In this document: piece by piece, positions 37,743-40,067 of the stretch | Layout of the letters: every line of letters starts with the position of its first letter | Numbering within the stretch: position 1 is the stretch's first letter | Source of the DNA: an uncultured Bacilli bacterium | GTDB taxonomy: Bacteria; Bacillota_I; Bacilli_A; RF39; UBA660 | Direction of reading: 5' to 3' | DNA length: 64,000 bases | NCBI GenBank assembly: GCA_947628235.1 | Contig: CANQZC010000002.1 | Coordinates: 1 to 64,000, forward strand | Made by a program: the position numbers and the translations under genes | Notes under the pieces: generated by a model | Databases searched by the model: none | What the model was told of the DNA's origin: nothing | The model's input: the letters and a program-made list of their open reading frames with translations, nothing else

Positions 37743-37793
37743 TTGACAAGAAAAGAAATGTATGTTAAAGTAATCCGCCAAAGAGGTGCGAAT

Positions 37794-38696
37794 ATGAAGT
37801 ATCCAATCAAACATGGCGGAAAAGGGTTACCTAGAATTTCTTTAACAGATTATCGATTTGATGGTAAAAAACTACTCCAAATGAGTGAAAAAAGTTCTAT
37901 TTTTCAATTGCAAGATGGAAGTGTTTTAAAAGTATTTTCACCTCAATATCAATTTCTTTTCGGACTCTGTGGAGGAGATTTAGAAACGAAAATTATGTCT
38001 ACGGAAAAGAAAAGATGTATCCCTGAAATTATGTCTCCCGAGTGTGGAGTATATGACCGAAATCGTTTTGCTGGATATGTTATGCCGCGCGCTAAAGGAA
38101 TTTCTCTTTCTACCTATTTTCAGTCACAAACTAAAGAAGAGCGAGAGAATTTAGAAAAATATGCTGTCCTCTTCGAAAGAATAGAGAAAGTAGTTCAAAA
38201 AGGAAATGCGCTTGGATATGTATTTCCAGATCTATGTTCCTTAGAAAATATTTTCTTAGATGAAAAAGGGAATATTCAATTGGTTGACTATGATGGAATA
38301 CAGATAGGAAATCATATTGCGATAGAAGCATCTACTGCCTTAGGAAATCAAGAAATCTTTATGCACTCAAAGTATCGAAACCAAAAATTATTTACTCCGG
38401 AATTAGATAAATTGAGTTTATTATTTCTCTATTTTACGATGACATTTCAAGTGGATTTAGGGATGGTAGGACAAAAAAATCCTTATACCGGAAAGACGAT
38501 TGAACTCATGGATATCCTTCAATATATTCGATTAGATGAGAAAGAATTGATTGAAAAAATAAAAGCCATTTTATCTTTTCAAGAACTTGGAGATTATTTT
38601 TCGTCCTCTGCATATCAAATTGCTTCTTCCTATCAATTAGAAGTAGAAGGTCCTATCGGAGATGGAAAATATTTAAAAAGATTAGTACGGAAGTAG
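37794..38696 (+). CDS. Protein kinase-like protein
   Basis: The 300-residue protein shows the core of a kinase fold: GSVLKVFSP (candidate ATP Lys), YVMPRAKGISL (hinge), FPDLCSLENIFLDEKGN (catalytic D-x-x-x-x-N segment, with Phe-Pro where HR usually stands) and LVDYDGIQIG (DFG position reads DYD). The key Lys/Asp/Asn/Asp set is kept, so activity is possible but atypical. Start 37794 follows AGAGGTG. The stop lies inside the terminator (38691-38717) that precedes the reverse transcriptase leader. Confidence 0.65.
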   Translation: MKYPIKHGGKGLPRISLTDYRFDGKKLLQMSEKSSIFQLQDGSVLKVFSPQYQFLFGLCGGDLETKIMSTEKKRCIPEIMSPECGVYDRNRFAGYVMPRAKGISLSTYFQSQTKEERENLEKYAVLFERIEKVVQKGNALGYVFPDLCSLENIFLDEKGNIQLVDYDGIQIGNHIAIEASTALGNQEIFMHSKYRNQKLFTPELDKLSLLFLYFTMTFQVDLGMVGQKNPYTGKTIELMDILQYIRLDEKELIEKIKAILSFQELGDYFSSSAYQIASSYQLEVEGPIGDGKYLKRLVRK

Positions 38697-38717
38697 TATA
38701 AAACTACTTCTTTTTTT
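38691..38717 (+). terminator. Terminator between the kinase-like gene and the RT unit
   Basis: AAGTAGT pairs with ACTACTT and is followed by C and seven T. The kinase stop codon is in the first arm. The T-run is immediately followed by the -10 of the next transcript. Confidence 0.85.
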
Positions 38718-38725
38718 GATATAAT
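38717..38725 (+). promoter_or_regulatory. Extended -10 promoter of the RT unit
   Basis: TGA plus TATAAT (38720-38725). The expected start is 38731-38733, which coincides with the first base of the terminal helix of the structured RNA. Confidence 0.75.
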
Positions 38726-38731
38726 GACTTT

Positions 38732-38857
38732 GGAAGAGATGTGGAAACACTACTTGCAGCGGGTTCAGTATATCATGAAATGATGTTTTGCAAGTAACTT
38801 TGATATATATAACCCTGTCATTAATTGATAAATCAATTATTCAATTCGTTCTCTTCC
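38732..38857 (+). ncRNA. Structured RNA upstream of the reverse transcriptase
   Basis: A ~126-nt leader lies between the promoter and the RT start. Terminal helix: GGAAGAGA (38732-38739) with TCTCTTCC (38850-38857), 8 bp perfect. Inside are: GTG-GAAA-CAC hairpin (38741-38750); TACTTGCA (38751-38758) with TGCAAGTA (38789-38796), 8 bp; GGGTT and TATATCA (38761-38765, 38769-38775) with TGATATA and AACCC (38801-38807, 38811-38815), which crosses the previous helix and so forms a pseudoknot or an alternative fold; and TAATTGA/TCAATTA hairpin with loop TAAA (38822-38839). The ribosome site GGTGGTG follows the terminal helix. This layout recalls retron msr-msd or DRT ncRNAs, but no known class is recognised. 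It could also be an mRNA leader that controls the RT. Confidence 0.75.
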
Positions 38858-38870
38858 TTGGTGGTGAATT

Positions 38871-40067
38871 ATGTCTCCGTTAGAGCGTTTAATAGAGGAT
38901 AAGGAATGGGATTCTTTTTTAGAATATCAAGAAAATAGATATCTTCCTAAAAAAGAATTAGAAGAATTAAAAGAGTATATTGAAAAAAGAAAATATCAAG
39001 ATGCCTGTCATCGTATTTTAGAGGGTACTTATACTTTTTCCATTCCCCAAAAGAAGTATATTAATAAAAATGGAAGTTCTAAAAAGAGAATTGTTTATTC
39101 TTTTCCCAAAGAAGAAACGATTCTTTTAAAAATGGTTCATTATCTTTTTCAGGATTATGATTTCCTACTTGCTTCTAACTGTTATTCTTTTCGTAAGAAG
39201 ATTGGTCCAAAACAAGCTTTTGAAGAGATTTTGAAAAAGCATCATGGATATGGATATAAAGTAGATATTCATAATTATTTTAATAGTATTCCTATCTCTA
39301 AGCTATTGCCGATGTTAGAAGAAAAATTAGATTCTTTTTCCTATACTTTTTTAAAATCTATATTAGAGTCCAAGAAAGTATCTTATCAAGGGGAAATTAT
39401 CGAAGAAGAAAAAGGTGTCATGGCAGGAACTCCTATCTCTTGTTTCTTATCGAATCTGTATTTATCAGAATTAGACTTTCGGATGAAAAAAGAATGCTAC
39501 GCGAGATATGCTGATGATATTCTATTATTTATGGATACGAAAGAAGCCTTAGAAGAAAAAGTAAAAGAGATGCATGCCATTTTCTCTTCTTTAGAATTAA
39601 CGATTAATCCTGAAAAAGAAAAGTATATTGATATTCAATCTCCTTTCGAATTCTTAGGATTTTCTTATTATCAAGGAGAAATTGACTTAGCGGATCATGC
39701 TAAAAAGAAAATGAAAGATAAGATTCGAAGAAAAGCAAGGGCGTTAAGAAGATGGATGCTTCGGAAAAATCTTCCCCCTGAAAAAGCCATGAAAGCTTTA
39801 AATAATATTTTTAATTATAAGTTTTTTTGTGAGAAAAAGGGACGGGAATTAAATTGGAGTATTTGGTATTTTCCCGTTTTAACAACGGATTGTAGTTTGA
39901 AAGAAATCGACCATTATTTTCAAGATCAATTACGATACATCAAAACCGGTAGAGTTCATCAAAAAGATAAAAGAAACATTCCTTACGAAGTATTAAAAGA
40001 AACAGGATATCGAAGTTTAGTTTATGAATATTATGCATTTCAAAAAAGAAAGAGTAGTCATATTTGA
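38871..40067 (+). CDS. Reverse transcriptase (retron/DRT-like, unassigned class)
   Basis: The 398-residue protein has all core RT motifs in order: RT1 KKRIVYSFP; RT2 LASNCYSFRKKIGPKQAF; RT3 YKVDIHNYFNSI (Asp132); RT4 KGVMAGTPISCFLSNLYL; RT5 YARYADDILLF with the YADD catalytic box (213-216); RT6 LTINPEKEK; RT7 FEFLGFSYY; then a ~130-residue basic helical thumb/C-terminal part. There is no group II maturase or endonuclease domain, no DGR-type motif and no obvious retron VTG motif. It lies 13 bases after a structured RNA and ends in a terminator-like hairpin (around 40045-40080); the following methyltransferase-like gene has its own promoter. The unit is therefore one RNA plus one RT. A defence role is inferred from such architectures, not shown. 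Confidence 0.9.
   Translation: MSPLERLIEDKEWDSFLEYQENRYLPKKELEELKEYIEKRKYQDACHRILEGTYTFSIPQKKYINKNGSSKKRIVYSFPKEETILLKMVHYLFQDYDFLLASNCYSFRKKIGPKQAFEEILKKHHGYGYKVDIHNYFNSIPISKLLPMLEEKLDSFSYTFLKSILESKKVSYQGEIIEEEKGVMAGTPISCFLSNLYLSELDFRMKKECYARYADDILLFMDTKEALEEKVKEMHAIFSSLELTINPEKEKYIDIQSPFEFLGFSYYQGEIDLADHAKKKMKDKIRRKARALRRWMLRKNLPPEKAMKALNNIFNYKFFCEKKGRELNWSIWYFPVLTTDCSLKEIDHYFQDQLRYIKTGRVHQKDKRNIPYEVLKETGYRSLVYEYYAFQKRKSSHI

Follow-up and report, generated by a model that had tools for sequence, protein, structure and literature searches.

The locus and its reverse transcriptase

The window, by which we mean the whole analysed stretch of 64,000 nucleotides, stems from a gut bacterium of the Bacilli and contains a two-part unit, consisting of a reverse transcriptase (RT) and its own folded RNA, with all parts on the forward strand. 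The gene upstream of the unit (37743-38696) encodes a kinase-like protein of 317 amino acids without a Pfam family, for which PADLOC yields a weak STK_OB match (31.6 bits). Between this gene and the promoter of the RNA lies a terminator-like hairpin with a T run (38689-38711; nine pairs, three of them G-C, and a T-rich tail), which would set the unit apart from the upstream gene. The kinase-like gene was considered as a partner of the RT and rejected, because of the terminator in between and because a gene of this kind, which precedes the RT at locus L033, is missing in the closest relative, L002. Pfam and PADLOC searches of the window flanks found ordinary genes and no defence island.

The RNA, of about 126 nt (38732-38857), is directly preceded by a TATAAT -10 element (38720-38725) with TG one base 5' of it. 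The RT gene begins with an ATG at 38871, 13 bases 3' of the RNA end and 19 bases past the end of the Rfam match described below, and extends to 40067. The extended -10 element, the 398-residue RT, its intact YADD box (residues 213-216, 39507-39518) and the spacing between RNA and start codon had been pointed out in a first-pass annotation of this DNA, and rereading of the sequence agrees with it on all of them.

The same annotation left the class of the system unassigned. This no longer holds, because the RT matches the profile of a catalogued group. The best profile is PADLOC RT_UG26 (PDLC03764, listed as DRT), with 461.7 bits over residues 1-392, followed by UG27 (119 bits), UG4 (115), UG17 (107) and a generic RT profile (101), while Drt3a, UG18, Drt9 and Drt2 score lower still (62.7 bits for Drt2). 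Judged by profile, the RT is a full-length member of UG26, a group of UG/DRT reverse transcriptases. The RNA is catalogued as well, as Rfam RT-5, and so is an accessory gene present elsewhere, as PADLOC RTasCOG2852. In Pfam, RVT_1 is the sole family above its cut-off, in keeping with the earlier statement that no maturase is fused to the RT, and the NCBIfam models for group II intron RT, Drt3a, retron St85 and Drt2 all score far below their own cut-offs. Placement among group II intron RTs, which the first-pass annotation regarded as incompatible with its reading, was not seen (120 bits where the cut-off is 300, and no maturase domain by Pfam). Assignment to DRT10 (UG17) was dropped at 107 bits against 461.7 for UG26, with no SLATT gene adjoining the unit, and a diversity-generating retroelement RT is disfavoured given the UG26 match.

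In all 36 UG26 sequences compared, R212, Y213, D215 and D216 in and next to the YADD box are invariant. A conserved C-terminal motif, YEVLKETGYRSLVYEYY (residues 372-388, 39984-40034), contains Y372, present in 36 of 36 sequences, and Y380, present in 33 of 36; the final two aromatic residues of the C-terminus are tyrosine in some, not all, homologues. The AlphaFold model of the RT is too poor for inspecting the active site or placing the C-terminal tyrosines (pLDDT 64.8, pTM 0.51). For this reason the structures it matched in the PDB, a group II intron RT, G2L4 and DRT9, are informative for the RT fold only.

The unit is thus a member of the catalogued, experimentally unstudied UG26 group. 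No published UG26 function was found in the literature searched, and a search outside the UG/Abi paper of Mestre et al. 2022 found no paper that treats RF03026 along with RTs; in that literature, UG26 turned up solely in a list of RTs from viruses.

A conserved, pseudoknotted RNA

Rfam RF03026 (RT-5) matches 38748-38852 with 55.9 bits (gathering cut-off 45.7), and the whole model is covered. Our own covariance model, whose building set includes the window RNA, covers 38725-38863 with 82.6 bits. The strand 38732-38857 folds with -31 kcal/mol; of 200 dinucleotide-shuffled versions, 199 fold less well (z -3.07). Together with the covariation described below, these results bear out the first-pass proposal of a structured RNA of about 126 nt closed by a terminal helix. 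That annotation also suggested looking for such a structure upstream of homologues, and the RNA is indeed conserved and covarying across 35 loci, namely the window and 34 further UG26 loci with RT-5 RNA (alignment A2). For the whole structure, 158 double-change cells were counted, compared with 49.9 in shuffles, and the signal is gone when the partners are slid.

The first-pass annotation had described two long helices that cross one another, as a pseudoknot or a switch. The pseudoknot helix joins ACTTGCA (38752-38758) to TGCAAGT (38789-38795), which lies inside the loop of the short helix P4 (38785-38787 with 38796-38798). In the 35 loci, 99.6% of the pseudoknot cells are paired, with compensatory changes at six of the seven pairs, and for P4 the values are 97.1% and three of three pairs. 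The other long helix, P2 (38761-38775 with 38801-38814), is paired in nearly all cells of its upper part, with strong covariation there and partial covariation in the basal part. The earlier description stands for the pseudoknot helix and for upper P2, but not fully for basal P2, where 38763-38765/38810-38812 are poorly supported in homologues. Since P2 and the pseudoknot helix have no base in common, they can coexist; a pseudoknot can form, and the covariation would fit coexistence or alternation of the two helices.

The closing helix P1 (GGAAGAGA, 38732-38739, with TCTCTTCC, 38850-38857), the hairpin H1 (GTG-GAAA-CAC, 38741-38750) and the hairpin H3 (TAATTGA-TAAA-TCAATTA, 7 bp, 38822-38839) vary in register, and were examined by permuting their 3' partners between the loci instead of by an in-register covariance model. 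P1 has 7.63 bp where 5.60 (sd 0.16) are expected across the 35 loci, and H3 6.71 bp where 4.30 (sd 0.18) are expected, both having been placed first by a best-duplex search per sequence, which favours within-sequence pairing. The same test gives 4.69 bp against 3.22 (sd 0.14) for H1 and 7.23 bp against 5.48 (sd 0.17) for the pseudoknot. Relatedness is not taken into account by the permutations; the compensatory pairs are highly varied nonetheless. Both hairpins of the first-pass annotation are thus found to covary. The structure line of RF03026 does not draw P1, H1 or the pseudoknot, whereas all three are supported here. On the strength of covariation, the RNA is a real pseudoknotted molecule. 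A second long-range pairing, of CUUUG in P4 with CAAAG in the linker behind H3, was not accepted (z about 1.8, p = 0.047).

In the window and at eight further loci (L002, L004, L006, L008, L010, L054, L057 and L058), a perfect TATAAT lies 2-7 nt 5' of P1, and at 10 of the 35 loci a terminator-like hairpin separates the RNA from the start of the RT gene. Because of the TATAAT before P1 and the terminators in the 10 homologues, the RNA can be regarded as a discrete transcript in the family and, by these signals, as more than an mRNA leader. The window has no terminator between RNA and RT, which is compatible with both processing and read-through.

Distribution and neighbouring genes

More than 35 UG26 genes came from searching genomes near the host and near other matches. 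The group is patchy: among the 288 genomes of the order 5 carry it, within the genus 4 of the 12 species do, and it also occurs in two other families (12 of 116 and 16 of 120 genomes). In RT-less species of the genus, the search for an empty site found the downstream gene, but in a setting that is not comparable. Phages, plasmids and IMG/VR yielded RTs of other kinds only, and no UG26.

RT-5 scores above the cut-off at 33 loci, the window included. At L040 and L053 the RNA stays under the cut-off but was recognised directly in the sequence, and our model, whose set includes both, scores them 73.7 and 86.8 bits. A contig end truncates L048. The RNA is present at every UG26 locus with complete upstream DNA except at two divergent UG26-like genes of genome G761 (L023, L024), where it was not found; in a midpoint-rooted tree, the divergent G761 genes branch outside all RNA-bearing UG26. 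Conversely, when 395 genomes were searched with the RNA alone, all three matches adjoined a UG26 gene. The RNA is kept across two phyla. Structure and linkage of the RNA are thereby shown. The first-pass view, in which the RT forms a unit with a structured RNA of its own, is supported.

Many UG26 loci have a gene for 129-215 amino acids without a Pfam family just upstream of the RNA. This gene is PADLOC RTasCOG2852 (best match 3.5e-63; 9 of 13 members match). In the 236 genomes of the two families, RTasCOG2852 is found in 20 of the 28 that have UG26 and in 0 of the 208 others (probability 6e-23). It adjoins the RT in 19 of the 20, and in the remaining one it is on another contig, the contig of the RT itself coming to an end. 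Most UG26 loci outside the clade of the window have it directly 5' of the RT-5 RNA, among them L031, L074-L078, L083, L084, L087, L088, L092, L093 and L096. In contrast to these UG26 loci, the RTasCOG2852 profile has no match in the window, which belongs to a clade of seven rows (support 99/99, midpoint-rooted tree) whose members lack the gene. Because of this clade, RTasCOG2852 appears optional and the form in the window appears to be RNA plus RT. The earlier idea of a single-protein type therefore fits the lineage of the window; the epithet 'undescribed' does not, as the system is catalogued under UG26 and RT-5. Two forms of UG26 can thus be set apart, one with the accessory gene and one made of RNA and RT.

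Some further neighbours were noted. Within the clade of the window, the RT of L034 (1000-2718, genome G1110) has a C-terminal fusion to a GNAT acetyltransferase (Pfam Acetyltransf_3, 30.3 bits) and a Fic-domain (SoFic) gene upstream, and L040 has AbiO upstream. AbiO/Nhi-type helicase genes directly adjoin two UG26 loci (L079, 5991-7433; L028, 2668-4149). In G761, two UG26-like RTs without RT-5 RNA lie 12 kb apart (L027, 9103-10386; L028, 1248-2501), one of them followed by an AbiO-like gene. DUF1848 genes (PADLOC RTasDUF1848) lie directly 3' of two UG26 genes of different lineages (L029, 5928-6812; L090, 9007-9936).

A proposed template and its alternatives

Class 2 ncRNA-templated DRT systems are marked by a conserved structured ncRNA beside the RT, as covariation reveals here at 35 loci. 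Elsewhere in Class 2, the RNA beside the RT serves as the template, and each Class 2 UG RT studied copies its own RNA differently. DRT9 (UG28) and DRT3a (UG3) make repetitive cDNA from a short conserved template in the adjacent ncRNA: in DRT9 uridines are copied and tyrosines of the C-terminus act as primers, and DRT3a copies ACACAC beside a stem-loop. DRT10 is the name given to UG17 (PMC12632851); its template starts right after the stem-loop SL5, a downstream repeat serves realignment, and priming is likewise from the C-terminus. The 137-nt ncRNA of DRT10 (PMC12632851) resembles the RT-5 RNA in its large closing stem, its several stem-loops and a single-stranded segment directly after the last of them, and the RT profiles are related (107 bits). 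In the text consulted, no pseudoknot is described for the DRT10 RNA, unlike the RT-5 RNA, and DRT10 needs a SLATT protein.

Since the DRT10 and DRT3a templates lie beside a stem-loop, we place the likely template of UG26 in the same position, in the linker that separates H3 from the 3' strand of P1 (TTCAATTCGT, 38840-38849), which measures about 10 nt at nearly every locus. H3 would mark the 5' boundary of the template, as SL5 does in DRT10 (PMC12632851). The template is poly-U in DRT9 and ACACAC in DRT3a; in UG26 it would be UUCAAAGNN-like, and UUCAAUUCG in the window. The A-B-A' arrangement, clear in the DRT10 template (PMC12632851), is weak in the linker: the within-sequence match is 3.51 compared with 3.26 after permutation (p = 0.017), a weak enrichment, and against shuffles the linker reaches z 3.2, but a control RNA region reaches z 3.0. 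The variable J2/4 loop was rejected as a template, as it has no repeat enrichment (z -0.1).

It is probable (about 0.6) that the UG26 RT with its cognate RT-5 RNA copies a short linker into a repetitive defence cDNA. The RNA, which folds into a ring closed by P1, with H1, a pseudoknotted P2/P4 core and H3, would be transcribed from its own promoter. The RT would bind it and, by analogy with DRT9, DRT10 and DRT3a, copy the single-stranded linker up to H3 and reset on it to yield repetitive cDNA, primed probably on a C-terminal tyrosine. The cDNA would act in phage defence, with RTasCOG2852 at most UG26 loci and without it in the clade of the window. The AbiO, SoFic-type Fic, RTasDUF1848 and RTasCOG2852 genes at other UG26 loci favour this reading; the window flanks, which form no defence island, the weak A-B-A' signal and the C-terminal positions where some homologues lack tyrosine speak against it.

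Alternatively, the RNA may be a cis-regulatory leader, for instance one bound by the RT for autoregulation, rather than a template. Its position directly 5' of the RT and the attenuator-like terminators in between at several homologues would suit such a role, but the distance to the gene reaches 227 nt in L050, the adjacent RNA serves as template in the other Class 2 systems, and a closed, pseudoknotted ring of 126 nt kept across two phyla would exceed the usual needs of autoregulation, so that we regard a leader as unlikely. DRT2, a Class 2 RT whose ncRNA also has stem-loops and a pseudoknot (PMC12596737), raises the prospect that a longer stretch of RNA is copied by template jumping into concatemers, instead of a short linker repeat. 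This is quite unlikely, in view of the fact that the DRT2 RNA is roughly twice as long as the RT-5 RNA and has a flexible template of about 120 nt, whereas the RT-5 RNA is structured almost throughout, with most homologues lacking a long flexible arm; the J2/4 loop lacks repeats, and the UG17, Drt3a and Drt9 profiles all outscore Drt2, whose profile does match at 62.7 bits.

A real RNA-RT unit with a role other than phage defence, such as a domesticated housekeeping function, would account for the ordinary genes around the window unit and for the failure to find UG26 in phages, plasmids and the viral collection. We consider it improbable given that UG26 occurs so patchily (in 4 of the 12 species in the genus), that defence genes (AbiO, SoFic-type Fic) lie beside several homologues, and that the RT belongs to the UG/DRT family (PMC12632851). 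The chances are smallest for a retron, with the RNA as msr-msd and the RT making RNA-linked msDNA. A small RNA with inverted terminal repeats does precede the RT, and retron_St85 gives 68 bits, yet this is far below the cut-off of 235 and the 461.7 bits of UG26, the RNA has no long msd-like stem, and the translation contains neither an NAxxH nor a VTG motif; a retron RT was rejected on these grounds, in line with the first-pass annotation.

Returning to the copying of a short linker, Class 2 UG RTs have been proposed as bacterial relatives of telomerase (PMC12632851). It is conceivable, though we hold it as a tentative idea only, that UG26 with RT-5 is a minimal telomerase-like machine, in which a pseudoknotted RNA, a hairpin-bounded template and a 398-residue RT would suffice to add short DNA repeats, with no effector protein in the clade of the window. 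With the RNA delimited, the pseudoknot and closing helix supported by covariation and a likely template named, the product of UG26 is now open to direct experiment. In the window, the predicted cDNA repeat is (CGAATTGAA)n if A is TTC (38840-38842 and 38849-38851), or alternatively (TGAAT)n if A is ATTC (38839-38842 and 38844-38847).
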